Below, piece by piece: positions 8,873-59,504 of a stretch of 64,000 bases of DNA; position 1 is the first letter of the stretch; every line of letters begins with the position of its first letter. The position numbers and the translations under genes were made by a program. The notes beneath the pieces are model-generated. The model had not been told where the DNA came from. It ran no database searches and saw only the letters and a program-made list of their open reading frames with translations. The stretch spans positions 44,721,164 to 44,785,163 of the forward strand of contig CM054177.1 in the NCBI GenBank assembly GCA_028829895.1, written 5' to 3'. This DNA comes from Sinotaia quadrata (lineage: Eukaryota > Mollusca > Gastropoda > Architaenioglossa > Viviparidae).

Positions 8873-11800
8873 GTATGTTCGTTTAGAGTGCATCTCAACA
8901 TAATTAAGTTTGGTTATTTATTGAATGTGAAACTTATAGTGCCAAATAATCAATAGCAGCAGTTTTGTGATCACTGTTTACTATTTGCAGAGAAATTTTT
9001 TAATTATTATTCACGGTCTTTATACTGTTTGCAAGGAATATTTTATTATTTTTCAGTCTTTATTTCAGTTTTGTTTTTATCAGTTTTTGCCAAGGCTGAA
9101 GGGGTTAAAAGCACTCATTAACTTCTGCACATACTTCAACGCAAGCATTTTCTATCCATGTTTATTTAACTCTTTACCAGGCAGACGTTTTTCTTTTTTG
9201 GCTCTGAACGGGCAAGATTTTTCAGGATGTTAGTAAGATTTAGGGGTACGTCGGTAAAAACATCATATCTTAGGTATTCGTGCATATATTTCAATGAAAT
9301 AAAATGCAAAATGAAAGGAAATGAAAGCAGCTTTATTAATATCCTTAATTGAAGTATACTTTATGGTGTTAAATTTGAATAAATGCTTGAAAATATATAT
9401 TTACACAAAAAAATATTGTCCATTTATTGTCCGCTTCATGTACACACACTTTTTGTTGATGCCAGGAACACTAATCTGTCGTCAGACGATCAATACATCT
9501 ATTTTTTCGGCAGATTGTGAATTCCTATCAGAATCATAAGTCCAAAATAAGCCTTAATTTCAGTGGCATTAGTTTCCTTCCAACCTGGATCGCCATTTTG
9601 TTTTTTCGCAATTTTCAGACGTGTGTACTTGTTCGTTTATTCCACTATCTTGTCAAATGTTTCTTCTTTGAAAAACTGATAGAAGAAAGCCAATTGAGTA
9701 CTATCATTAGTTACAGTCACATTCGGCCCCATTTCTGTTATAAATTCCGATATATTCAGTGCTAAAGTACTATTATTCCAACCATGTGCGACTCCAGATA
9801 CCCATTCCCCCTACTCCTCTTCAATATCCTCAGAATCTAACACACTCTCCTCCAAAATTTGAAAGATACTACATGCGCACGCTACTGACACTAATGTCAC
9901 TTCTAATCTTATCGTCCAATTCAAAATAAACTTCTCTTACCTCATTATCTGATAAGTTGAATCCATTAAACTTCTCTTTAACAATCGACGACACTAAGAA
10001 ATCCATTTGAAACACCAAACGCAAAAAACAACGAAAACTTTATGAAAAAATGAATGCTGCCACATGAAAACGCTTCAAAATGGCGGGGAAATCGTTGTAC
10101 AAACGTCATGCTTCCTGTAGAGACCGGATATGATGTAAATATGGGAAGGAAAGAGCACTGTAAGAGCAATGGTTGCTATGGGCGGCATTGGGCGTTCTGC
10201 CCTATACGATGTATGGGCGGCATTGGGCGTTCCGCCCGGTAAACAGTTAAGCACATTTTCTGTGCACCTATCTAGGGCATGTGTACCTATGGATGCATTA
10301 ATTGAATCAATTGTAATACTTATTTACCAAAGTACATCTACTACACAACTGATACATAAATCATGTCAATATGCCTAAGTTCCTTTCTCTTAATTTTCTT
10401 CAGTTCCAGATATGCTGTCGATGAAGGCGCTGAATGACCGATCAGTAAAAACTAGGTATACTTAATGTGTTTGTTTATGTTTACTGAATTTTTAAAATTT
10501 AGTTCTCACTGGTCTATAATCTAATCTATAATTCCAAATATAGCACTTTGCTCATTGAAATAAGTCCAAATAATTATTCACATATAAAACTGCTTTTTTG
10601 TCCCTGCTCATTTGAAATAACTTGTATCAAGCAGAAAATGCACTTTTCTTAATTTGTTAGAATTTAATTTTATTGGATAAATGGATTTTTACTTCTGTGT
10701 GTGTGCGCGCACATGCATGTACTTTGCATTATAAGTTCATATGCCATGTTAATTAGGGAGCTGGGTTGTATAGGTTTGCCTGACCATGTACCTGTTGCTA
10801 AACAAAAATCACCACTTATTTCTCACATGCTATGGATCCCGAGTTTACTGAAGTTGTAATTGTGATATCAGACTATGCAGATTGAGAGAAAAGTAAGTTA
10901 GGTGTACAGTTTATGACACTTTCTTGTGTTTTCAGAAAAACAAAATCTTACTTTCTGCTTTTCATAAACATAGTCACCCTGTTAAATTTGCATGGTACAT
11001 CATGATTAGAAATATTTGTTCAATGCATACAATAAGTATATATTTAAATTGTAATTTTTATCTTAAGTCAGTTTTATAAGCAATTTTAGACTATTTCAAT
11101 ATCTGCTATGTACAATAAATATATATCTAAATTGTAATTTTTATCTGTAAGTCAGTTTTATAAGCAATTTTAGACTATTTCAATATCTGCTATGTTATTG
11201 TTATATATTTTAACATCCTTGAATTTGAATGTTGAAATATCTTACTTTTCCAATATATAAACTCATGAATTTTCAGGTACTGTTAGTAAAGCACTTAAAG
11301 ACATGTCAATTCATTATTTACTGTGACATTTACCTGATATTTAGTTTTATGCTGCAGATTGCATTTCAATAGTATAGCAATTGTTTTTCAATTACCCTTC
11401 ATACCTTCTTTTATCCTTTTTTGTCAAAATATAAAATCTAGATTTTTAACCAGAAAATATTAAACTAATCCTCATATTTAATTTATTAAAATGTACAGAT
11501 ATGTACAATACATTTACAAGTGTATTAAAGCTTATTCAATTTCCTTCAAAACGATATACAAGTATATAACATCTTTAGAACCTGGACAGAAATATGTTCT
11601 AAATAGACCCAGCAAAATCATCAAAATCTCACATCTAACGACAGTTAAATAATAATTTTGTCCAGAATAGTTATAAGAAGTAGCGATTATGTTCAAATAT
11701 AATAATTAAGAAGTATTTTAATCAAAAACTCTAATATTTATTAATTATGAAAATAATGTTTTGGTCACAATTCTGAATGATTTTATGGGTTATAATAGAG

Positions 11801-20100: not shown

Positions 20101-23100
20101 GACTGGTGCCACTAACTTCAAAAATGTTTGAATTACATCCTCAAAGAATAAAAATCAGAAGAAAATTGTCATTTTCCCACAAATTTATTTATACAGGGTA
20201 TACTATAAATGAAATTTAGCGAACTTATTCGATTTGTAGGTGCAGTAGTATACTATACATGAAGTGGCCTATATCAATCTAATCAAATATTATCCTACAA
20301 ATGTATTAAAAAGATATTTTAATCACATCTTGGTTTGTATTGTTGCATAAAGACACTCCCCAAAAAAAGATGGATTGTTTTAGATAGTGACAAGTACTAA
20401 GTTATTAAGTAGGCCTACACTTACAATTGAGGGTGTGTTGAATGATGAATATCATTGTAGGCCTATTGCTGAACATTTGAGTATTATTTAATGCTTTTAA
20501 TTTACCTTTGAAAAAACAGAACTTGAGGTATAATAAAGTTTACTAAAATTATGTATTTTAAGAAGAACAAACGGATAATTAAAATTGATCGTATGACAGT
20601 GCTGGCTGAGCAGGCAGGGTCACAAGCCAAGTGTCTGCCCGATGATAACAGATAAAACTGCACAAATCTATTGCTTCATCATTGCTTGAATATTTTCATC
20701 ATTGTCACTGCTGCTACATCAGAAATGTCATTATTATTGTCTAAAACACTTCTGTTCAGCCATCTAGCTAATGCAGCAGACAATACACGAGTGGTACATG
20801 CCATTGAAGCTTACTTCTGGTTGGTATCAACTTGATACCTAACTTCTAACAAATTAATTTTCATCCCAGATAGCACAACATTGCACAGTTATAACGTTAT
20901 TTTGTAGACGGATTCTGCACTACCATAAATAAATCAAACAACTGACCACTAAGAAATAAAGTTTCAATCCTAAAATTCCAGTCAAAGTCAGAATGAAGTA
21001 GGCGAAGTGCCATAACAATAAATTTTAGGTGACTTTGTGTCCAAATCATGCACAGCCATGTGACCCATGTATTATAAATAGAAACAAAGAGCCTTCTTAC
21101 TCAAGGTGATATGTGCGCATCTCCGATTGCTAAAAATACCATGCAAACAGTCATGTGTTAAATGGGACGAAGTAGTACCAATTCTGGATCAAAGAGTTGA
21201 CACACATACCCCTTAAGTAGTCATTTTACACTTTAAAATGCTATAATCTTTTATTCAAACACCAAAATATGGATTATTGAAAAATAATGATCAATAAAGT
21301 GATTTTTAAAAAAAAAAAATTACGACTGCAAATGGCTGTAATGCAAAATTAATTATAGTGATTTTAGCAGGGATTTTGCATAGAATACACAAGTACTTTG
21401 ATGTGGGCAAAATGTGAGTGATAACAGAGTAGTTTGGTGTGGGCAAAATGTGAGTGAGAGAACAGAATAGTTTGGTATGGGCAAAATATGAATAAAAACT
21501 TCGTTTGGTTTGTGAAAAATGTTATTGTGAGAACAAAATAGTTTGGTGTTGGCAAATTTGAGTGTGAGAACATGGAATAGTTTGGTGTGAAAAGATAAGA
21601 GTTATATAGTTTGAGAACTGAAGTAGTATTTGCAAAATGTGTGTATGATGCCATAGAGTAGCTCAGTGTTGGGCAGTTGTGTTTGAGTTTCAGAACATAT
21701 AGTAGTTTGACAAACATTGGGCAGTTATGAGAACAAAAAGTAAATCAGTAATGGGCATTTTTGTGTGTAAGAACATACAGTAGCTCAATGTTATGTCAGT
21801 GTAAGAGACAGCATTATCTCAAATTTGGGCAGGTGTATGTGAGTGTCAAAACATGCATTGGCTTTATTTTGAGCACTTGTGTGTGAGGATGAGAACACAT
21901 TAGCTCAGCGATAGGCAGTTATATGTGATTGTGAATCATCAGAATCTGTGTTGACAAAGCACTCACAACCTTCTTTAGCAACTGATGTAGGGATAGGCAG
22001 GCACTTTCACATTGATTAAATATTACACATTCTTCTGAGTGCATCATTCTTTCTGTATTCTTATGAGGTTTACTTCATAAGTTTGTGTACTGCACCATGA
22101 GAGTATACAGCAGCTTGATGTTGGACAGTTGTGTGATTGTGAAAGCATTCAGTAACTTGATGTTGGATAGTTGTGTGAATGTGAGGGGTGTTTTGGATAG
22201 TTGTGTGATTGTGAGAGCATTCAGTAACTTCATGTTAGATGGTTGTGTGAATGTGAGGATGTGTTGGATAGTTGTGTGAATGTGAGAGCATTCAGTATCT
22301 TGATGTTGGATATTTGTATGATTATGAGAGCATTCAGTAACTTGATGATTAGTTGTGTGAATGTGAGAGCTTTCAGTAACTTGCATCCACAGAGAGGTTT
22401 ACTGGTTGTATCTGAATCTTGAAAGGATTGAGAACTGTTTAAAGAAAAATGCATATTTTCAGAAATATTAACAACTCTTATTCAATCATTTGTTTGTATT
22501 TAATTGCACTCAGGGGTGAGCGCTTTGCCATGGGTACACCTTACGTTCGGCCCAATGAAACCTTTCATGAACCAACAAGAAAATTTTTTCCAAATGAGGT
22601 ATAAGAATTTATTTAAATATTGTTTCTTTCCATGATTATTGCTTCATTGGTGTTTTTAAAAATGTGTGAGAAAAATACTTTTCTTAACGAGTCAGAACTT
22701 TAACTTTCCATTTCTCTCTGGATCTGTGTGAAAAATATTATAGGCTCAAGTGGTCCAAAGATTAGAAAGCAATGTCTTAAATATGAATCTAAATAATCAG
22801 TTGTTTTTTTTAATGCTACTTTATACATGATTTATTTCATGCCATAAAATTATCCATTAATGTGCAAGGAAATGTTATTGTGTACATGTTAATATATAAT
22901 TTTTGTCTTTTTTCTGAAAACAATTTGTAAATGGGAAAGAAAGTTTTAGGCACTTTTGTAATCAGATATAAGACACTTTTTTGTATTATGTAATTCATTA
23001 TCAGTATACCTGTAAACTAATTTATTATTTAATAAATGTTTTATTAAGGTTTATATAATAATAAACGAAATGTGTGACTTGACATAACTTTGCCGAAAAT

Positions 23101-26100
23101 AAAGGATGTTAAGTTCATCATTTGTAAAATAACTTTCAATACTAGGATTTTTATTTATTCCCATCGATAAAATAAGCCCCCCCCAAAAAAAAACCAAACA
23201 AAAAAACTGATACATTTCAGTTACCTCTGTATCACACCACTTTTTGATACGTGACGAAGTAGAAAGGTTTGCTCTCGATAGTAGATCTGCGGCGTAAATA
23301 TTCGTGAACTCGACAATTTTTTGCACAAAATCCACTGGTAAAAGTGCTTCCATAATATTGTGTTCCACTATTTCCTGCAAATGCACCTGGCTTTTCCATG
23401 CGCGTAGCAGACAACGCCAGCCAAGCCATGCTTTGATCACAACCGGTTTTCATGGTACTGGTACTGGCCTTGTAGTCACCTGCATCTAAAATTTCAGTAG
23501 GGGCTGGTTGAACATTTTCATCTTCTGATGAGAAATCAGATTCATCTACTGAATCATGTTATGACCCAGCTGTGGCTTCAAACTCACAATCGAAAACATC
23601 CAAACTTGCCATGGCGAAAAATCCAACACAAAATGTCTGCAAGTCTTCAACAAAGACAGTGGTTTGTATGGCAAAAGGCGCCAATTCAAGCTCATCAGCA
23701 TACTGATTATAAGTATCCAATTATAAAATTTATAACAGATTGGATGCTGAACTAAACACATCCTTCTTTTACTATGATTAGTTATTTTTAATAAATAGTT
23801 TCAAACTACACACACGATTCTATAAGCCAGTGACACAACATGTAGCAGTGTCACAGGCTCACGCACTTCCAGTTAGTGACATAACTTGTCATTATGACAG
23901 CAATTGGGTTAATTGTAGACCTTACTACATACCATCAAAATAAAGTTAGCTATGAACAATCATGATTTCAACAACAATAAAGAAGAGCTGTATGGATTCA
24001 GAAATTAGATTAAAGGGAGATAATTTTGGCTAAGCTCCCACTCTTTTAACAGAAGAAAAATAGGCAAAATTATTAAATATAAAGAAAGAAAAGAAAAATT
24101 GCATCTATTAAAGGACTCAAGAAGTCAATCAGTAAAGTGGAATTAAAAGTTTGTTGTTCTTTAAGGCAGAACACACAGCTTTAAGAATTTGAATTTTTCA
24201 GTTTACAGATTTTTATATTTTACAAACTTTGACATCTTCTTTAGCAAAATAAATATTAATGTCTTCTTATTAAACATGAGTGTATGTGTGTGCAAATAAA
24301 GTTGTTCAAAACCACTTGTATTTAAAAATATATTTCCTGAGCCAAATTTGCTGAAAATGCACATATTTGGCTCGTGATTAACAGCATTCTGTTAAGTCCA
24401 CAGGAATATGGCATATGGAAAAATAAAGAGTATTAAATTCTCTACATTATTAATGATTACGATTTAATTACTGCTCTTAGAAATCTTGATCTCTTCAAAA
24501 TTATTTTAAATTTAGATAGTGTGCTACATCTTGGAAAATCATAACCTTGTTGGTTGAAATAGTTGGTATCTGTAGTGCCTGCTAGTTTTATGTTTTTCTT
24601 CGAGAACTTCTTCAGACAAAATAAATTATAGTAAATAAATCAGACTATATTTTTATGTTTGTTTGTTTGTAGTTACAAATCATTTCTCAAGGGCTAAGCA
24701 GATTTTGACATGGCATATTTTTACAGGCACAGTCAGAACCACGAGGTAGACAAGACAAATTGACTTTTGGCAATACATTTTCACAAAAGTGCTTAATTTG
24801 ACAAAATATAAATAATCTCTTGTTAAAATCATATTCATCCTGCATTATAAACATTAATAATCACTATCATATTAACACAAATTACATTGCATTTCAATTG
24901 GGGTGATCAGCAATCAGTGTATTTCAATGCAACATTGACTATGAAGTAACTTAAAACATATCATGCAAAAATTCTAATTTTTCCATTCAGTAATGCATAA
25001 ATATAATTCAATGATCATATTTTCCATGCAATATTGTCCCCATATTATGCTTCTAAGACTTAGACTTTTGAAACAAAATATAACGCAGTGCAAGAAAACA
25101 GTATGATTTAAAGTTTCTCAGCATATCACATTGATTCGGATAATTATTTTCACTCAATGTGATATGTAAATAAAGTTTGATGTTTATATATTGTTCAAAA
25201 TAATAGCATCGAATTATACTGTAAAGACAAATTACACATATGGAGTGGAATATGCTGTAGTGCAGACAATTTGAACTTTGTTTTTGACTAAAATTTTTAT
25301 TATGAATTGATGTTTCATGTCAATTTATATTATTATATTTATTACACAGTATTATATGACATTACAAGGATATGTGTATGTGGTAAACAAAATTCTTTTT
25401 TAATTTATAACCAGAAAAGTATAGAAATTCCAATCTTATTTCTTATTCTGATTGTCATATACAAATGACATAAAACACGAATGCTTTCCTAATTTATCTG
25501 TTAACATATTTATTAATAAAATTTATACTTAAATATAAACTTGTTTACTTATGTCTTTATATGGTTATTTTTTTTTGTACAGGTGTTTCGAATGCCCACA
25601 TATGAAATTGCTCCTCTAGAGCTGGTAGCAGGCAAATGTGTAGTTGTGGATCTGAACACATTCTGTAAAGGTCGTCCACGAGGCATTCGTCCACAAGATA
25701 TTTACATCTGTGAATATCGAGTTGACAAAACAGCTCATCTCTTCTACAAAATTGTTAAACAGCGGTTAGTAATTACTAGACTTTACTCTCTAGGGTTGTA
25801 CTAAACACAAATAAATCTCAGTTAAATAAAATAATTTTATTTCAAAATATGAAAGACATCAAATGCATTTTAAATATTTTATCATTTTTACAAGAAAATA
25901 CTTCTATGTCAAATGACAACTCTCTGCATTATACTTTTCAACAAATTTTTATATGTCAAATGACAACTCTGCATAACACTTTTCAACAAATTTTTATTAT
26001 ATGTCAAAAGACAACTCTGCATTACACTTTTCAAACATATAAATTTACCTTTGTTCTTTCATCAGCTATCCAATCAACACAAAGTCCTATTGCTTTGAAA

Positions 26101-44938: not shown

Positions 44939-47900
44939 CTGTACATAAATAGAATTTTAGAATAATATTTATTCATTCGCTTGCTGTAAGCAATTTCGAT
45001 ATATATCAATAGAGAAATGACAATGGGGTGAGAAGCCACGTAAAAAACTGAATGCACTCGAAGATAAAAACAAAAATATTCGCTCAACAGATACTTGACA
45101 TTTGTTAAGAACATTCAGGGTGGATACTTAATCTGAATGAAACCACCAATGGTCATTCAATGCTTCTTCAAGCCTGATTTTAAATTAAGTTGAAACAGTC
45201 TGTCCTGGCTTAATGTGACTTAGATCCTGTGCATCAAATGTGATTATCTTTAAAACATCTGACTTGGTGTGATACTGATTAAGTAGAAACACCAAAATGA
45301 TGCTAATTTATATTACATTTATTGGTTAAAAATGTTGCAATCTTTGGCAATAATGCTAAGTGACTTGATGGCATCACTTCAAACTGCAATACATGAAGCA
45401 TTTAGAGTGTTCATTAAAAAAGCACAACCAAAGTTCATGGACAATTCCAGCATGCTGAAGTATTTGTACAGATTGAAGTAATCATGATTTTTTTTTTTAC
45501 AATCATGAAAATCTGAAAGAACAGCAAGAAAAACTATGAATTTGTATAATTTAAAATTCACCTCATTAATTAGTGACGCCTGTGATCCTTTGACACTTCC
45601 GTCATGTGGGTATGCCTGACCACTGTAAATCATGTTATTGTAGCTGTTGCTAACAGGTGGTAATGAACCTGCATCTCTATGATCAGATGTAAACTTTTTC
45701 TTGCATGGCCCACACGATCTTAAGCATGGGTTGCGTAAAATTCCATACAGAAGCAATACCAGCAAGCCCTGAATGCCGAAAAAAAAACCACAATTATGTC
45801 CCTTGTCTCTTCTAACAATTCTGTACTTTGTCTATTCTAACAATTATGTTCCTAATAATTTCTAACTAATATGTCCCTTTTCTGTTCAAACAATTATGTC
45901 TGTCATTTCTTTAACAAGTATGTCCATTGTTCTAGCAATTAGGTCCCTTGTCTGTTCTAACAATTATGTCCATTGCCTGCTCTAACAATTATGTTCATTG
46001 TCTGTTCTAACAATTATGTCCATCGTTTGTTCTAACAATTATGTCCCTTGTCCTAACAATTATGTCCATCATTTGTTCTAACAATTAAGTCCATTGTCTG
46101 TTCTAACAATCATGTCCATTGTCTGTTCTAACAATCATGTCCCTTGTCTGTTCTAACAATTATGTCCCATCGTTTGTTCTAACAATTATGTCCATCGTTT
46201 GTTTTAACAATTATGTCCATCATTTGTTCTAACAATTATGTCCATTGTCTGTTCTAACAATTATGTCCCTTGTCTGTTTCTAACAATTATGTCCATCGTT
46301 TGTTCTAACAATTATGTCCATCGTTTGTTCTTACAATTATGTCCCTTGTCTGTTCTAACAATTATATTGCTTGTCTGTTCTAACAATTATGTCCCTTGTC
46401 TGTTCTAACAATTATGCCACTTGTCTGTTCTAACAATTATGTCCCTTGTCACTTCTAACAATTATGTTCATTGCCTGTTCTAATAATTATGTCAACGTTG
46501 CTAGTTCTAACAATTATGTCCCTTATCTGTTCTCACAATTATGACCCTTGTCTGTTCTAAGAATTTAAGTCCATTGTCTGTTCTAACAATTATGTCCCTT
46601 GTCTCTTCTAACAATTATGTCCCTTGTCTGTTCTAACAATTATGTCCATTATTTGTTCTAACAATTATGTCCATTCTATTTTCTAACAATTATGACTCCA
46701 GCCGATTAAAAACTGCAAAAAACATGTTAGAGCCGACAATTTGGGTTAGCTAACACTATGAACAACTCAACATTCTGCTGTCCCTCATCTACCAATCATA
46801 AGATCTTATAATTCTCAATTAAAATGTATTTATTAATAAAATAAAATGAGGGACTTATAAAGGTTATAGAGGAAACAGCATCCACATCCAAATCAGCATC
46901 AACAGCTACCTGCAGTATATTGCAAATGCAGAAAAGAACCAACATCCACAGGTGTCCATACACCATATGCAAACCACCCCAAAGCCAGGTAAGAGTCAGC
47001 AGTGACCATAGTAACATCAATAATCGAATTTCTGCAAGGAGACAGATATTAATTTCAATGCAATTAACTTTCTTTTGTGAAAGAAGTTTTTGGATGTCTC
47101 ATCAAAATGTTATTTAACCAATCCTGTATTTTTTTTAAAACAAAATGTAGAAAGTAAAACATGGTATTACTATTCATTGCACATTATATTTTTCAAATGT
47201 GGACAGTAAAATATAACTGTTTCATTACTTGTTACATTTTTCAAATGTAGACAGTATGAGGTGATAATTCAAGATTATAATATGAGATGATATTTAAAAG
47301 TTATAATATGAGGTGATAATTCAAGATTATAATATGAGATGATATTTAAAGTTATAATATGAGGTGATAATTCAAGATTATAATATGAGGTGATAATTCA
47401 AGGTTATAAAATGAGGTGATAATTCAAGGTTATAATATGAGGTGATAATTCAAGGTTATAATATGAGGTGATAAGGTTATAATATGAGGTGGTAATTCAA
47501 GGTTATAATATGAGGTGATCATTCAAGGTTATAGTATGAGTTTATCATTCAAGGTTAAAATATGAAACAAGTTCCAAGGGGAAAAGAACTCTCTAATCTT
47601 CAGAAGGAATAATCAACCAATCAAAAGTCTCACTGTGACAAATTCAGGAAAGGCCGATTAAATCACAAGACACACCTTCTAAACAACTTATGGAAGGTTA
47701 AGTTATCATTTCAAGGGCAAGTGGAAATATTCAATGCAAACAGGTAAACTAAGTCATATTAGAAATAGTAAATAACTGATAGAACATGAGCAATATGTGT
47801 AAAAAAAAAAAGAGTAACTGAAAATGGCAAAATACTACATAATATTACTCTAGATTAAAGAAGCAAATTTTATTACCTTGAAGAGAATTAATTTTGAATC

Positions 47901-50900
47901 TACTGTATATATGCAATTGCTATTTGTAAGCAAATATCTAACCACAATGCTAGCAGCAACATTTATTATTAAATTTTAATTAAAATTTCTTAACCATTCA
48001 TTTAGTTTATCAGTTGTAATGTACTGATAACTAACTAAATGACTAAATACAATATTATCAATAATTATGTACCTAGACTCCATAAATGTTTTATGATAGC
48101 TAAAGACCAGTTTGACCATAATTACTAAATAACTATGTATGTGTATATGGGGATTGAGAATTATAGCCTTGGCATATAAGGTTAATATAATGTACTTATT
48201 ATGTAAATCATGTTGTCCCTTTAGTTGCTTATGGCACATCCCTCCCTGTATGATAATATTGAATCATTCATGATGGTCCCTTAAACTTCAATGTAATGAG
48301 ACTGCAATGTGTATTTAAAAATAAGAAGATAAGAGAAAAACGGGCTTGATAAACATCCATTTGATACAATTATGTCCAAAACAGAAACATTTGTAATTTT
48401 CCACAGAGTAAAGACTTGACAAGCATATCTTTGAAACCATTGTGCCTCAAATAGAAACATTTGTAATTTCCCACTGAGTAAAGACTTGACAAGAATACCT
48501 GTAATATTGTAGTGCCCAACATAAATGTCATCATATGCTTCCCACTGAGGATGGACTTGAAAAGCTTTGACAAAGATCGCAGCTGTGATCACAAGCAGCA
48601 GTAAAATTGGTACTATCACTCCACCAACAGCCGTGTAGGCATTTGTCAGGAAACATCTGCAAGGTTGTAACTGGTATAAGGCATGATTGGTAAATAATAT
48701 AAAATTACTTTGACATCTGCGAAGTTGTAAGTGCTATAAGATGTACATGTAATTGGTAAATATTATGAAATTAATTTGACATCTGCATTGATGTGACTGC
48801 TGTATGATGTAATTGATAAATATTATAAAATTAATTTGACATCTGAAAAACTGTGACTGGTATATGCTACAACTGGTAAATATTATAAAATTAATTTTAC
48901 ATCTACTCCATTGTACATAATATATTTCTTTAAACTGTCAGTACCTGTATGACTTTCAAATTAAATTTCTGAATGTCAAAAACACTTTAATCTGACGAAT
49001 TCCAGTTGCTGAGTGAAATTTAGAAACATAAAACTTATAGATGCTACAACAAATAGCTCACCAGAAGAAAATACATGGTAAACAGTTAGCTGGTGTTGGT
49101 GAGTTTTCTTGGTCAAGAGTGTTCATTAAAACAGTCACAAATATATTCTATATTTATTTGAAAGTTTTAAAAAAATGCACAATGAAACTAGACATTTATA
49201 ATTACATGTATTTATATTTTGGGTGAGGAGATGCAATTAAAGTTTTGCTGAAAAATCATGATAACTGCTGTAAATTTGACAAACTTAAAAAAATCACCCC
49301 TGAGAAATTTCAAAAGAACAAAACAATGATTTGTCAGCTGCAGAGAAGTAACTACTAAATATTAGTAGCAGTGTTTTAATGGCATATGAGAAGTAACTAC
49401 TAAATATTAGTAAGAGTGTTTTAATGGCATAAGAAAACAATGAAAATAACTTTGTAACACTTCACTCAGTGTCATTTTTCAGATTATAAATATTTTGAGA
49501 TAAATTTGTCCCATGGGAAAGTCATCTTAAATCTGTGCTTGATTTGAATAAAGACCTTATTGTGTCATCATTCTTTTGAATTAGATCACAGACTTCCAGG
49601 AAAATATTAGTCATAAACTTATCACATTTCACCACTGTTGTTGACAGACATCCTGTAAAATATTAGTCATAAACTTATCACATTTCACCACTGTTGTTGA
49701 CAGACATCCTGTAAAATATTAGTCATAAACTCATTCACATTTCAAAATTGCTGTTGACAGATGTCTCGTAAAACATTAGTTTTAAAGTCACTCACAAAAT
49801 TTTAATGTTGTTGACAGATGTCTCGTAAAACATTAGTTTTAAAGTCACTCACATCACTTTAGTGTTGTTGATAGATGTCTCGTAAAACATTAGTTTTAAA
49901 GTCACTCACAAAATTTTAATGTTGTTGACAGATGTCTCGTAAAACATTAGTTTTAAAGTCACTCACATTTCAAAATTGTTGTTGACAGATGTCTCGTAAA
50001 ACATTAGTTTTAAAGTCACTCACAAATTTTAATGTTGTTGACAGATGTCTAGGAAAATATTAGTTTTAAAGTCACTCACATTTCAAAATTGTTGTTGACA
50101 GACATTCTGTAAAATATTAATCATAAACTCATTCACATTTCACCAATGTTGTTGACAGATATCTCGTTAAATATTAGTTCTAAAGTCACTCACATTTCAG
50201 CATTGTTGACAGATGTCCAGTAATACATCAGTCTTGAAGTCACTCACATTTCACCATTATTGATGACAGATATCCAGTAAAATATCAGTCTTAGTCACTC
50301 ACATTTCAACATTGTTTTGTACAGACATCCAGCAAAATATTAAAGTCACTCAATATTACTGTTGACAGACATCCAGTAAAATATCAGTCTTAAAGTCACA
50401 CACATTTAAAAATTGTTTTTTACAGACATCCAGCAAAATATTAAAGTCACTCAATATTACTGTTGACAAACATCCAGTAAAATATCAGTCTTAAGGTCAC
50501 TCACATTTCACCATTGTTATTCACATCACCATAAATAAAGTCAACTGGTAGAGTTGTCTGATACTTGTATACATTATAGGTGACTGCATAAAACACAGCC
50601 ACTGTCACCATTGGCAGAACTGAAAGAGAAAATTATGAAAAAATTACTTTTTCACCTAGCATTGCTAAGAGACTCGTACTGTGTGCCATTTGTTTATGTT
50701 CACATTAACACCTTACAAAAAAGTACTGTTACAAATCAACCACAAATCAGCAATTTCTTCATTTAACAAATGTTGATTAATACTGAAGTCACTTTTGAGA
50801 TGAAAATATTAAACTGTTGAAAACTTGGAAACTAATGAAAAATATGACAATGTTGATTGACTTTATGAAGATCACCTACAATAAAGTGAAATGAGATTAA

Positions 50901-53900
50901 GAGGTTAATATTAGGAAAAATATATTTTTTTAAACAAAACAAATGTGAAATGAATAAATAGGGAGGTTGGTTTTGCTTTTTAAAATCTTTCAAACCCAAC
51001 TATCATTCTAAATAAATATTTTCATTCACCACAGGAACCACTAGTGTTTATTTTCCCATGTAGTTATTCCCTTGGGTTCATAAGCTTGTTGAAGTATGAT
51101 TACAAACAAAATTTTCATAAACAAAATCAAAATGTCTCATCTATCTTGACTTGACAAGTTTAATATAATTTAAAGAAAATGTTTGCAAAGAATAGTTTAG
51201 TATAATTTAAAGAAAATGTTTCTAAGCAACTGCAATCAACTCACTAACAACAATCTATACACATTGTAATATAGGAGTTATCTCACTTGACAGCAGTTTC
51301 TACACACAATTATCTCACTGACAACAATCTCTACACATAGTTACATAGCAGTTAACTCCCTGGCAACAATCTCTACACATAGTTACATAGCAGTTAACTT
51401 GCTGACAACAATCTAAATACACAGTTATATAGAAACTAATTCACTAACAACAACCTCTACACCTAGTTACATAGAAGTGAACTTATAATAATCTATTCAT
51501 ATAAATTGATAGCAGTTATCATTCATGCAGTTAAAGTCATTTCTCCAATGTCTAAATGTCTATAATTTGCTGAAATTCCATGTCTATAACTTGCTGAAAT
51601 TCCATGTCTATAACTTGATGAAATTCCATGTCCATATTTACAAATGTAACCTCCAAGAGAATCTAAAACACATATGCTTAGCAGCAGGTAAGGATTTACA
51701 GCAGTCATTGACTTTTCCCAGTTAGTATAATTCCTAACAAAGGTGTGAACATTAAATCTTTACAAATATTATTCCTAACAAAGGTGTGAACATTAAATAT
51801 TTACAAATCTTATTCCAGAGAAATATGTCTCCAATAACTTTTCTCTGTAAATAGTTACTAATGCCATCTTACAATAGAAGTTTAGATACCATTTTCTCTG
51901 CAGTAGTTACTAAAGCGAGGCCCTTTGTTCCACAGGGAATCCAAGGAGATAAGTAAGTAAGCTACTAAAGGCATCTTACAATAGAAGTTTAGATGTAAAA
52001 TGTTTCAAACTAAAATTTTAATCAGTTAAAATGTTCAGACATTCTTTTTGTTTATTTTTGATTTGATTTTATCTCCATTTTCCTTTCTTTGTCTTCATCT
52101 AACTTCTCTCATGTAATGCAGATCTATTTGCCTGCCTTCCTCATGTGGCACTAGACTGTATATCTGACATTGTGATCTGGTTGTCAATGATGTACATACT
52201 TTGGTTATTAAGTGAGTACTTGGTTATATATGATGTGTGATCTGGTTGACAATGATGTGAGTACTTGGTTGCATATGGTGTGTAATTTGGTTGTCAATGA
52301 TGTGTATACTTGGTTATATATGGTGTGTGCTCTGGTTGTCAATGATGTGGGTACATGGTTATTTATATATGGTGTGTGCTCTGGTTGTCAATGATGTGGG
52401 TACATGGTTATTTATATATGGTGTGTGCTCTGGTTGTCAATGATGTGGGTACATGGTTATTTATATATGGTGTGTGCTCTGGTTGTCAATGATGTGGGTA
52501 CATGGTTATTTATATATGGTGTGTGCTCTGGTGTCAATGATAGTCCAGAACTAAATAGTCATTTTATTAAAAATGTATAGTCCAGAATTAAAAAACAGTC
52601 ACTTGCCAACTCAACCTACATAGTCCAGAACTAAATTATAGTCACTTGCCAACTCAACCTACATATTATTCAGGGCACCTTAAGACAAAAGAAAGTAATT
52701 AGTCAATTCAATCTGCATACAATTAAAAGCACCTTAAGAAAAAGAAAAGAAATTACAAGTACATTTACAAAACAGATTTTTCTTTTCAATTAGAATACAT
52801 ATTTCTTTTATTTTCATTGCATGTGCCCTATTGAACAGCCATTTTACTTATTACTAAGATGACTCACCCCAGCCAAGTGCAAAGAATGCAATGTACATCT
52901 GATCTGTATGCTCATCATTCATCACCAAGACTTTCCAGTAGTTGATTGCCTGCAAACAATTTATTTTTTTAAACTGCAAGTCAGCAATAAAATGTACAAT
53001 AAAGCATTCAGTATTTGTATACATATAAATGTAATGTTGTCTGGTTATTACTAAAATAGTATCACACTTTCCACAGTCAAAAAGAAAGAGAGAGGGACTG
53101 TGAGAGCAAGAATGGGAGAAAACTAATGACATAACCTTTTTAGTGAGTAACTATTTGCACATTTATGAGCAGTAAATAGTGATTACTTGCACACTTGTCA
53201 GTATCAACTAGTCATTAGTTGCACCCTTGCCAGTATCAACTAGTCATTAGTTGCACACTTGCCAGTATCAACTAGTAATTATTTGTACACTTGTCAGTAT
53301 CAACTAGTAATTATTTGTACACTTAATGAGCTTAATCTTTCACTAAAAGGGAGGAACAAGATTGTCCTGGAGCTTCAACAGAAATGCCATTCTTCAGAAG
53401 AAACTTGCACTATTTTCCAGTGATTTGGAATCAAGTCAGCTGTTGCATTTTCATACAGTCCGTAATTATGTGATAAAAGAAATGCTTGAGCAAGTTAGAC
53501 CAATGTTCATTTCATGCGCAGAAAAATTACAAGATGAATTTTCAAGCCAATTTCAGGATTATTTATTTTTATTGTCCTTCCTAATGATGATTGGACAGCT
53601 GCTGCTGCAGCTACCTTTCCCACAATTAGTCAAGCTGCTCTTCAGGGGAATGAACATCTGAAAACTGAAGCTTCATGACCAGGACATAGCAGTCTTCTGG
53701 TGTGAGTCATGCAGAATTACAGTATCCAACTATCAGGAGACTAGCAGTTAAAGTCTTGACAATGTTTGAATCAACTCTTACATGCAAATCAGCATTTTCA
53801 TCATCAAGATCATCAAGACAAATTTATGCAGAATATTACTGTTTCTTATCTAAGTCGACTCAGTTTATTATTGTTTCTTACCTACATCTGCTCAGTAGAT

Positions 53901-56900
53901 CGTTATTTCTTATCTCAGTTTATTATTATTTCTTATCTAAGTCTACTCAGTTTATTATTGTTTCTTATCTAAGTCTATTTAGTTTATTATTGTTTCTTAT
54001 CTAAGTCTGCTCAGTTTATTATTGTTTCTTACCTAAGTCTACTCAGTTTATTATTATTTCTTACCTAAGTCTACTCAGTAGATCGTTATTTCTTACCTAA
54101 GTTCTACTCAGTTTATTATTGTTTCTTACCTAAGTCTACTCAGTTTATTATTGTTTCTTACCTAAGTCTACTCAGTAGATCGTTATTTCTTACCTAAGTT
54201 CTACTCAGTTTATTATTGTTTCTTACCTAAGTCTACTCAGTTTATTATTGTTTCTTATCTAAGTCTACTCAGTTTATTATTGTTTCTTACCTAAGTCTGC
54301 TCAGTAGATCGTTATTTCTTATCTAATTTTGCTCAGTAGACTGTTATTTATTAAACAAACATGCACACTGGATTGCTTTGTCTTACCTGAGCCATAATCC
54401 AAAAGAACTGTGCCAAAAGAAAGTAGTGCCAAAAGACTCCCATCACAATACAGCGGTAGTTGTTAACAGAGGTGTTTGGTGCCAAGATCTCCCCAGGACT
54501 GAGGTAGGCATTCACTACCATGCAAAGCTGCCAGAGAAAGAATAAATAAATGCAATCAATCTTTTTCAAAAATGGAAATGCCACTATAAACACAAGAATA
54601 ACTCTAACAATTATTGCTGGGCTATGCTACAACTACTTGCAGCAACGTTTCTAAGAAAATAGACACCTTTCATAATTTAGTGGTTTTGTGTATCCCTAGT
54701 TAGGAAGTTATGAATACAGTCCAACAACAATAATAAAATTTAGTACTGATAAAATTATGATTATTTTTTTTTTAAGTCTGTAAAACAACACTGCTAAAAC
54801 TAGTAGTGAATTATAAAATGCCTATAAAACAGCACAGATAAAAGTAGTACTAGATTATACAAATAAAAGTAAAACTGCTCTGATAAAAGTAAGTATTGCA
54901 CTCTTTAAAATAAAAAATGGTATTGTCCAACAGCAGTCATAAAACTGAGTATTGTATTATAATAGACCTTTTAGTAACTGAGTATTGTATTATAATAGAC
55001 CTTTTAGCAAACTGAAAATTAACATTACCTGTGTTATAATAGACCTTTTAGTAACTGAAAACTAACATTACCTGTGTTATAATAGACCTTTTAGTAACTG
55101 AAAACTAACATTACCTGTGTTGCAAACAGTGCAAACAACATATGTTGCAAAAGACTGGCAGAAATTGTGGGTTGCTGGTAGCACAAATGGTGTGCCATTA
55201 TTACCAGAATGATGCATGACTGAAAAATAATAACATCACAAAATAATGATAGCAAACAGGAACAGTCGAGTAGGAGGAAGAAAAGAAAAAGTATGTAAAT
55301 CATTTTACCATTTGTATTCATTTTATATATACATATATTTATAAATTAATTTAAATTAGTCAAAGCATCAACAACAAGAATGAGTGTGGCTGCTCCAATT
55401 TTAGGTGAAATATGAATTTACAGAGCTATTCAGTTGACTCAAGAGATGGAAGAATGCCTATCAAAGGCTGCTTATATCTGATTACATAGTCAGGTAGTTG
55501 GTATCTAATCAATTTAAATAGAAAACTACATTTCTAAACAGCACTATTAAAGCTGCTTTGAACAACTAAAGACCAAATATATATACAACCTATATATATA
55601 TATACAACCCTATATATTGTACAGACATAGTATACATACATGCCTATGTAGTCTATAGCCAACATATATGTACATTTATATACTCTGTGGACATTGCATG
55701 CATGCATGCATTTATATTGTATAGACTCAACATATATATATTCTATATACAGTGCCAATATGCATACACACTGAACACCATATAGATCCAGCATGCATAA
55801 AAACCCTTTTACTCTATATGCAACATTAATTACCTATACATGTATCCAATTTACTTCTTCTGAGTAAGAGTCTTTGGATTGTTCAAACTGATTCTACAAT
55901 GGAGGTTACAAGTATTTCAAAAAGCAGATGTTGGTCTGCCGGATGAATGATCAACAATAATGGCAAGCTGGTAATCTATACTTAGACTTCATATTATATA
56001 TGAGTGATCTGTATCACAGTGAGAAATACAGAAATACATTATACAGCTAATGACCTGTGTAAAAATCAGCAACAAGGCAAACTGATGTTCTCAAGAGATA
56101 CATTTCATACAGCTAAGAACCTGTGTAAAAATTATCAACAAGGCAAATTGATGTTTTAAAGAGATCACTTCTTGCAGCTAACGATGTGTAAAAATTAACA
56201 AGGCAAGCCAATATTCTAAAGAGATACTCTTCATAGAGTTAATAACCTGTAGTACAAAAGATAGCAGAACAAGGGCAATTAATGTTTTCAATGACTGCTC
56301 ACCACAAAATGCTCTTTCAATGGCCACATAGCACAAAATATTCAGTGCTTTCAATGGCCACATAGCACAAAATGTTTATTGCTTCAACAACTATTCTCAA
56401 CCAGTGGTATAGAAAGGCAAAGTGCTACCCATATTACTACCAAAATTACCTCTCCCCCCATTTCATTCATATTATTTATGATATATATAGTACTCTTATC
56501 AAAAGACAAGATATACCTGCTTTACAAATTGCCACCCCTTAGAAAGTGCTGCCTGGTCCACCCCACCCCCATCTTCCACTTGCTATGCCATGACCTTACC
56601 ACAAACTTTCCCATGCTTTCAGTGACTTAACTTACCACAAACTTTCCCATGCTTTCAGTGACTTAACTTACCACAAACTGTTCCATGCTTGTAATAATTA
56701 TAATTTAACTCACCACAAACTGTTCCTTGCTTTCAATGATTTAGCTCACCACAAACTGTTCCATGCTTTCAATGATTTAACTTACCATAAACTAATCAAA
56801 TGCTATACTTTAATGAACTCACCATACTGATGAAACATGAAATGAAAAACCAAACAACATATCCAATGATGCCAGGATCATTGCCTTTAGCAATGACTGC

Positions 56901-59504
56901 ATAGTTTGTCAAGTGAACTCACCATACTGATGAAACATGAAATGAAAAACCAAACAACATATCCAATGATGCCAGGATCATAGCCTTTAGCAATGACTGC
57001 GTAGTTTGTCAAGTGACTGCATGCACAATCCACAAAATCATCAACGCCCATATTCAGGTTATTCTCTACTTTGCATGTGTCTGGTGGGCTGACCCATTCA
57101 ATTAAAGATGTGTCAAAGTATACACACCTGAAAGGAAATAATCATGCTGCAATTAAAATATGTTTCCAACACAAAACAGTGGAAATTATCCAACCAACCA
57201 TATAGGAGAAAGCATTTCTATGAAAACCATATGAATCAAAATGAAAGATTGCCCTACCACTTATTATCTATTTCAAGATTGGAAGAAAGATTGGAACTGA
57301 TTTAGCAGTTTCTGTATGGCTTATTTCTTTTAACTGTTGAGAACAAATGCACTGAAAGAAGCAATGGTGATACAAACTTTGACTGTTTAGCAGCAATGCG
57401 TCGATCAGGAGTGTGGATACGAAATTTAGCAGGCTGGGCAGTAGCTACTGATGCTCTCCCTTTGAAGCCAAAAGACACTACCTTGAATAAATAACATTTA
57501 CAAAACACTATTTATTCTATGAACTTGCAGGCAAGATGGCTCATAGAGAGCTAAGTCAAGTTTCAAAAGTAACTTATATTAAATCATGCTAAACAGGCAG
57601 CATAACAAAAATAATAAGTTAGTGAACAAAAGTCTGAGGTGAAAGGCAAAAAAGGAATCTTTTTACTTACAATTTTTTTCCTGAGTTCCTTTGGCAGATG
57701 AACATACTGTAGGAGTTATATTACTAGGGACTGACATCCCACAAAGGGAAAATAAACAAAATTGAGTTTTGCCTAATAGCAAATATCATGGGTGATGTCC
57801 CTTTAGTATCCCAAAATGTGGGGTACAGATTGAAAAAAAAAACAGTGGCAGTGATGTCTCTGAGTAAGCCTATGTAAAAAACTCTCTTTCTCATCATACA
57901 TTCAAAAATACATGCTGTAGAAAAATAATGAATGGGAGGTGGATATTCCTTGATAAGTATAATAAATATATTTTGTGTTTAGTGCATGTATAAAATGCTT
58001 GAGAACATCCCACTCCCCTAATCAAGAGAAAAACTGAGGCAGACTAGGCAATTACTTCTAAATCCATATTTATATCTAAATCCATATTTATATCTAAATC
58101 CATATGAATCAGTAGCCAAAGTAGACACAACTCAAAGATAGGATTTAGTGATAGACAAAAAAGACATCTTCATTAGGCAATGTGGAAGATAGAATCTAGC
58201 TTAAGGAAAAATGTCTTCAACCCATTAGGCACTCTGGAAGATGGAATCTAGCAAAAGATACAAACGTCTTTCAATCCATTGTTGCTACAATCTCTTTGAA
58301 GACCACAATTCTATAAAATGATAAACTTAAACTAGATTTTTACAAATTAGGATTTATTTGGTTTTGATAATAGAGATCAGGCATGCATTCAAGATAAGAC
58401 AAGATGATAAAAGTCTGATTATAAAAATCAACTCTTGACAAGATGGGGAAGTAGTCTAGATGTTTAACTGATTTATGTAGCTGTGATTTATGTAGAAAGA
58501 AATCTTCAGTGCCTTAACAGGTGCCACATAAAAAATGTATTATACCTACTGACACTGGCAAAGGGGGGATAATTTATGGATTCCCTACTCTGGAAGTCTA
58601 TTCCTTACCTAAAAAGAATCACTCTTTAACTAAGCTGAGCAATCCATTACTAAGGGATGTAATTTTAGCTGGATCTCCAGACAAAGTGTAATCAAACCTG
58701 TTGATACCAACCAGTCAGAGGGTTCTAAAGATATAATTTGACATTCTTAACTTTCCTAAAATGCCTAAAATGTCAGAATTCAAATAGTTTATAACTATTC
58801 CCAAATCACTAGCTTGGGGAAAAAGGAACATCTGAGAATTTCTCTTTTCATACTAATCATAATATCTGCTATATCTTTGTCTAAGGACACGTTTAGTCCA
58901 GTAATGTGTCTGAGTGTGGTGCCAGCAAGGGGTCTCAAAATCTCTTTATTTCACACTTACTGACATATTATCAATTATGTAAATTTATTTAGTCTCTTTA
59001 TTTCACATTTAATGACATATTATTAATGATGTAATTTAAGTCTCTTTATTTCATACTTACTGACATATTATCAATGACGTAAAATTAGATTTAGTTTCAA
59101 TGTTTAACATTAAGATGTTAAAAAAAAAGTCAAAGGCAAAAGCATTAAATAAACAATCCTTTCAAGATAAATTCTGCAATAGCACATTTGGCTGTAATGC
59201 CACTAATGCCACTGCAAACACAAACTTCTCTCTTGGGAACGTACCCTGTTACTGAGTAGTTCCTCACCATTCTTTGTTGGAAACCACTGGTCACTGCTAT
59301 ATTCTATCAGGTGAAAGTCAGCACACTAAAAGGAACAACAGACATTAAAGCTTTAGCATCTGTATTAGATAAAAGTATTTAATAATTTAAAAGTAAATGC
59401 TCTTATAATTTACACTTATTATTAATATATATAGATACAGTTGATTAAATAATTTTAAACTAGTCTAAACTTCACCAAAAATAAAAGTACCCCTGTCATT
59501 ATTT

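Follow-up and report, generated by a model that had tools for sequence, protein, structure and literature searches.

Minisatellites carrying copies of splice junctions in ADGRV1 and myosin genes of the gastropod Sinotaia quadrata

Introduction

When the intron next to an exon is a tandem array whose unit contains the splice junction itself, does the junction generate the array, do the extra sites serve a purpose, or is the junction merely caught in a duplication? The question is raised by a stretch of 64,000 nucleotides from Sinotaia quadrata (contig CM054177.1, positions 44,721,164 to 44,785,163; hereafter the window), the minus strand of which encodes the 3' part of ADGRV1. An earlier note on this sequence had claimed six such ADGRV1 junctions, namely the donors at 48499, 50505, 54387, 55115 and 56923 and the acceptor at 48656. 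Copies are confirmed here at all of these except the donor at 54387. The arrays are probably "mirage" minisatellites, produced by frequent, untargeted tandem duplications that happen to span exon-intron boundaries; the extra sites would then be tolerated as by-products and not serve regulation.

Results

Each exon edge of ADGRV1 was compared against its own intron. The exons are numbered E1 to E9, positions are those of the window, and all ADGRV1 exons and arrays are on the minus strand. Exon E1 (57127–56923) has an open frame with an ADGRV1 match and encodes the end of the extracellular part and the start of the first transmembrane segment (TM1). Its donor at 56923 is accompanied in the intron by a single 100-bp tandem copy (56814–56913). 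The match extends over 99 bp with 98% identity and includes at least 78 exon bases and the donor, which is intact in the copy. The ends of the copy share TCA, a 3-bp junction homology that suggests a recent duplication via short homology. The earlier note had correctly seen that this junction is copied, but had ascribed the copy to a 36-bp array instead of the 100-bp duplication. A genome search with 56595–57016, covering both the copy and the 36-bp array, matched itself only.

The donor of E2 (55219–55115, open frame) is flanked by a 43-bp array (54986–55121) that overlaps the exon by 7 bp and provides two extra intact donors, together with a partial copy lacking the junction. At the donor of E5 (50619–50505, open frame), the array extends over 49592–50525, including about 20 bp of the exon, and is made of units of about 54–57 bp, some of them in a 101-bp higher-order arrangement. 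Sixteen unit matches were found, 14 of which bear the junction. The units have diverged (80–98% identity), GT is kept in all 14 junction-bearing ones, and six of these equal or exceed the real donor in score.

Both edges of E6 (48656–48499, open frame, encoding TM5) are copied. A 60-bp array (48653–48904) upstream of the acceptor at 48656 repeats the 3' splice site three more times, 60, 126 and 186 bp away, with about 4 exon bases copied and AG retained in each. Diverged copies of the 3' exon end (48343–48490) accompany the donor at 48499. They are mainly exon sequence, their number is two in one comparison and one in another, and the copy aligned across the junction lacks GT. Their spacing is nearer 70–71 bp than the 74 bp proposed earlier. 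The E6 region (48360–48700) matched itself only in a genome search. No copy of the E3 donor at 54387 was found in its own intron.

Specificity was assessed by counting how many other sampled donors or acceptors score as high as the junction from which an array is thought to derive. None of the 76 other donors did so for the 100-bp copy of E1, the E2 array or the E5 array. For the E6 donor the count was 0/76 with a template of 75 + 12 bp, and 3/76 and 12/76 with two shorter templates. For the E6 acceptor, 0 or 1 of 93 other acceptors scored as high, depending on the template. Two arrays with donor-like units were rejected on this basis. The 32-bp array near 54387 (53834–54337), which starts 3 bp past a dispersed repeat, is not derived from E3, as 9/76 and 4/76 other donors do equally well. 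Nor can the 36-bp array near 56923 (56595–56793) be traced to the E1 junction, with 8/76 and 5/76. Both resemble the general donor consensus. Similarity no higher than that to other junctions was found for these two arrays and not for the remaining ones. One weak match elsewhere in the genome was seen, for the 54387 array only (78% over about 115 bp). By these controls, the claim that the units are mutually unrelated and that each comes from its own exon edge holds at five of the six sites.

Junctions were also called in six myosin gene regions (L032–L050), other myosin loci, six kinesin exons and ASH1L, which were pooled with ADGRV1. Acceptors scoring 0 or less, donors scoring 1 or less, and calls less than 40 bp from one already kept were dropped. 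The final set comprised 197 junctions, of which 196 were scored: 110 acceptors and 86 of 87 donors, one having no flank. A copy was counted when at least 19 of the 24 bp around the junction matched within 700 bp. On this criterion, 8/86 donors and 3/110 acceptors have a copy. ADGRV1 contributes ten donors, four of them copied, and nine acceptors, none of them copied, to this final fixed-window set.

Junction copies are not limited to ADGRV1. Outside it, 7/177 junctions have copies (4/76 donors and 3/101 acceptors), all seven in myosins. The donors belong to the muscle myosin M2 (two) and to the myosin V-like M4 and M6, and the acceptors to M3, M5 and M6. One donor unit of M2 has seven downstream copies and another has three perfect copies within 200 bases. 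The donor unit of M6 is present four times, and acceptor units occur upstream nine times in M6 and five times in M5. Of the three copies in the M4 array two have GT, and the nearest does not. ASH1L was indeed devoid of junction-derived arrays, as had been noted, with 0 of 11 called junctions copied. Pairs of junctions from different genes gave no match at 19/24 with 8 exon bases. Two extra M2 acceptors that matched when the search was extended to 1500 bp were read, by inference, as repeated exons; they are absent at 700 bp. The M2 region (L038) also has three near-identical copies of a myosin head exon in a row, which are probably mutually exclusive exons.

The frequency of copies was compared with that at matched control points, taken in the same intron and on the same side. 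In the first matched test, made with BLAST, 10/95 junctions were copied versus 19.1 expected. A further BLAST version, with one acceptor left out of the matched counts, gave 8/77 donors versus 10.5 expected and 3/94 acceptors versus 14.2. Over 24 settings of this version, donors were at 0.54–0.79 and acceptors at 0.12–0.25 of expectation. Since BLAST tests can favour intron points, both sides of which may sit in an array, a test with a fixed 24-bp window was added. With 8 exon bases and at least 19/24 matches, it yielded 8/77 donors versus 7.5 expected and 3/94 acceptors versus 10.5. The values for the final set were 8/86 donors versus 8.8 (bootstrap 0.40–1.63) and 3/110 acceptors versus 11.6 (bootstrap 0–0.59). 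Exclusion of ADGRV1 left 4/76 donors versus 5.7 expected and 3/101 acceptors versus 9.6. At a looser setting (4 exon bases, 18/24), 7/110 acceptors were copied versus 14.3 expected, and the p-value of the donor-acceptor difference was 0.59. Points in the interior of exons were copied in 6/908 cases, all six within the E1 duplication. Copies are thus most frequent at intron points and donors, less so at acceptors and least in exon interiors.

Locally repeated points amount to 65/150 in ADGRV1 introns, 47/360 in the myosin genes and 27/150 in the whole window, and another measure gives 37.5% for the ADGRV1 introns. ADGRV1 looks extreme because some 37–43% of its intron positions in this part are locally repeated.

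Discussion

The earlier note knew of no named description of this pattern. Canestro et al. 2002 is reportedly an earlier reference to it in amphioxus. Under the name of mirages, a later report describes repeats across exon-intron boundaries, many of them with AG/GT, that leave regular splicing undisturbed as judged by reverse-transcription PCR; those of Adh3 display length and somatic instability (PMC3087553). The genes concerned are Adh3 and the globins BflGb6 and BflGb9, to which PGBD5 and troponin C were added (PMC3087553, PMC3902484). Common to these and to the present arrays are the spanning of boundaries on the 5' or 3' side, a unit length between some tens and about 160 bp, the many AG/GT and an intact gene product, here a predicted one.

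The correspondence can be followed in some detail. The unit comprises exon and intron of one boundary at E1, E2, E5 and the E6 acceptor; it is mostly exon at the E6 donor, and the array near 54387 does not have this structure. Many repeats, not all, keep the AG or GT (E1 1/1, E2 2/2, E5 14/14, E6 acceptor 3/3, E6 donor 0/1). Both 5' and 3' boundaries are affected, with 8 donors and 3 acceptors among the 196 junctions, plus the E6 acceptor. The arrays are assigned to a known kind because their structure matches amphioxus mirages in every feature that can be tested on sequence. The differences are that this is a mollusc, that the genes are ADGRV1 and myosins, and that a rate is estimated against an intron background. 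RNA and length polymorphism were documented in the amphioxus work, whereas the present data are the sequence of one assembly. No report of mollusc mirages was found in the literature searched, which covered few subscription journals.

Other systems are less close. Turri et al. 1995 is said to have found that the human IFI6 minisatellite supplies multiple splice donors. Repeat units of IFI6 (6-16) are described as used as splice donors (PMC4526556; cited in PMC2572611). The likeness lies in each unit at the exon end supplying a donor. In IFI6, two downstream units are used and give rise to several mRNAs; here the data are genomic, and the copies tested predict early stops. In human genes located in segmental duplications, internal tandem repeats occur at exon-intron boundaries, and boundary minisatellite expansion changes the splice-site content as it does here; they were judged to be variable repeats forming novel introns (PMC2812944). 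A model of intron gain by tandem duplication of proto-splice sites likewise has duplication multiply splice signals, but its new intron arises inside an exon (PMC2891723), whereas in the present case it is existing introns that hold copies, made from their own edges.

The copies, their spacing, the intact dinucleotides in most of the best copies and their presence in several genes lead us to infer frequent duplication that is not aimed at junctions. Local tandem duplication would be common in this genome, the E1 copy with its TCA match being a possible instance. After duplication across a donor, the original donor would stay beside the complete exon and the extra donors would lie deeper in the intron. 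Such an event may be close to neutral because the original donor and the intact exon remain joined, so that normal mRNA is still possible. With two units present, expansion could proceed as in any minisatellite. Duplication across an acceptor would leave the true site downstream of the extra ones, which would be transcribed first and be nearer the branch point. This draws on the idea that, among duplicated sites, those in an intact exon context win, and that the acceptor is selected by a scan starting at the branch point. Copies of acceptors seem to be purged: they could be fewer because, lying upstream and being made first, they more often disturb splicing and get removed. A broader proposition, that junction-spanning minisatellites are common genome-wide in this mollusc, with donor duplications neutral and acceptor duplications purged about fourfold, is tentative and somewhat doubtful.

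In a strong form, the idea of the earlier note would have minisatellites seeded at hotspots, these being the splice junctions themselves or their transcription and splicing. In its favour are five ADGRV1 junctions with copies within 9 kb, and donors with copies outnumbering acceptors. There is, however, no excess over matched intron points, starting with the 10/95 of the first matched test. Donors stand at about 0.7–1.05 and acceptors at about 0.2–0.5 times the expectation. Local repeats span matched intron points at roughly the frequency of donors and at a higher one than acceptors, which is not what junctions that generate arrays by themselves would give, and this explanation is very unlikely. 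Still harder to credit is an assembly or consensus artefact, in which reads were collapsed or mis-joined and the remainder is chance similarity to splice consensus. Some copies are 98–100% identical, and the 54387 and 36-bp arrays did turn out to be consensus resemblances, but most arrays have diverged units (80–98% in E5), with several periods and in several genes, and junction pairs across genes essentially never match.

Selection of the extra sites as functional decoys or alternative sites, which might slow splicing, tune the level through nonsense-mediated decay or provide isoforms as in IFI6, is unlikely, if not to the same degree as hotspots. The best copies keep the splice dinucleotide at 9 of the 11 junctions with a match, as do all the junction-bearing E5 units, and IFI6 units do act as donors (PMC4526556). 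Homogenisation of repeats is also expected to retain GT. One site of note is the E6 acceptor copy at -60 (region 48653–48716), which outscores the authentic site on a simple score (1.8 versus 0.8). If used, it is predicted to insert 20 in-frame residues with no stop, which makes it a candidate for real alternative splicing. Aligned mollusc ADGRV1 homologues have no insertion at the E5/E6 edge, though: it is continuous in six relatives wherever covered, one of them having a shorter loop. Use of the donor copies tested is predicted to lead to a stop after 11 codons for E1, 7 for E2 and 1 for E5; the E6 donor copy at +70 has lost GT, and its extension is open. Nothing was found in favour of a buffering of U1 or U2AF by the extra sites, as once suggested; the copies tested at E1, E2 and E5 would meet a stop within 12 codons.

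Several points weigh against regarding the arrays as tolerated by-products of untargeted duplication. The evidence for the copies is genomic. The donor-acceptor difference is only suggestive, the contrast being weak (Fisher p 0.034–0.59 over settings), partly on account of few events. Nineteen of the scored junctions come from ADGRV1, the gene that drew attention. The sample is made of myosins, a few kinesin exons, ASH1L and ADGRV1, and outside ADGRV1 the calling of splice sites relied on a simple score in the vicinity of protein matches, so that some edges are wrong. The E6 acceptor array, with about 4 exon bases copied, scores as a match only in some settings. As the E6 donor copies and the nearest M4 copy have lost GT, not every array keeps spare sites.

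To a kind already known, the arrays add a new lineage, a first estimate of the rate and a possible polarity between donors and acceptors. Mirages have been described as a cephalochordate peculiarity; their occurrence in unrelated genes of a mollusc suggests that they are present wherever local tandem duplication is frequent. They provide many natural tests of splice-site choice among near-identical neighbours and a possible route to new splice variants or introns. Were the contrast between donors and acceptors true genome-wide, it would measure the strength of selection against extra acceptors relative to extra donors. The polarity would then amount to an experiment of nature on the order of encounter between spliceosome and competing sites, and mirages would be a general and continuing source of spare splice sites.

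Gene models and other features of the window

The window lies inside a 984-Mb, 26-contig genome, with 31.5% GC. The nine 3' exons of ADGRV1 join into a single open frame of 1417 nt, the C-terminal end being ADTHL. The exons in addition to those described above are E3 (54527–54387), E4 (52949–52868), for which no junction copies were found in the edge-versus-intron comparison, E7 (47031–46910), E8 (45768–45562) and the last coding exon E9 (44938–44657), which terminates in ADTHL; E7, E8 and E9 are open. The seven-transmembrane (7TM) part matches the structure 9fte_A (Adhesion GPCR V1) with E 4.3e-32 and Pfam 7tm_2, the secretin-family 7TM domain, with E 3.8e-14. The nearest named proteins to the 3' part are from the bivalves Potamilus (52%) and Pinctada (41%). 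Of the candidate upstream exons (57–64 kb) only a part was used, namely the donors at 62092 and 62655; locus L051 was left out.

Myosin V exons of the same genome are nearest to gastropod and bivalve proteins. Non-muscle myosin matches include Haliotis, Patella and Batillaria at 79–83%, the top rows of that list being vertebrate and arthropod proteins, each aligned with several parts of the joined query. The plus strand of the window has exons encoding bromodomain, PHD and BAH domains, presumably of ASH1L, a name given from the domain order.

A 25-bp array of about 36 units (45790–46694) stops short of the E8 acceptor at 45768, which lies about 20 bp further downstream, and does not include the junction. 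In a genome search with 48340–57130, 40 of 727 candidate matches were scored: the region itself, 15 with a dispersed repeat at 53322–53831, 21 with a motif at 51917–51961 and three others, one of them being the weak match within the 54387 array. Among these 40, the 15 further copies of the dispersed repeat have 71–80% identity; the open reading frame inside it matched no Pfam family above the cut-off. The motif, of about 44 bp, is found among the same 40 at 21 other places, most of them 96–100% identical, and may be read as a highly dispersed element or its core. Matches to the transposase family DDE_Tnp_1_7 were found on the minus strand at 23054–23449 (E 3e-07) and 9502–9636 (E 2.6e-05), pieces which we take to be old piggyBac-type remnants.

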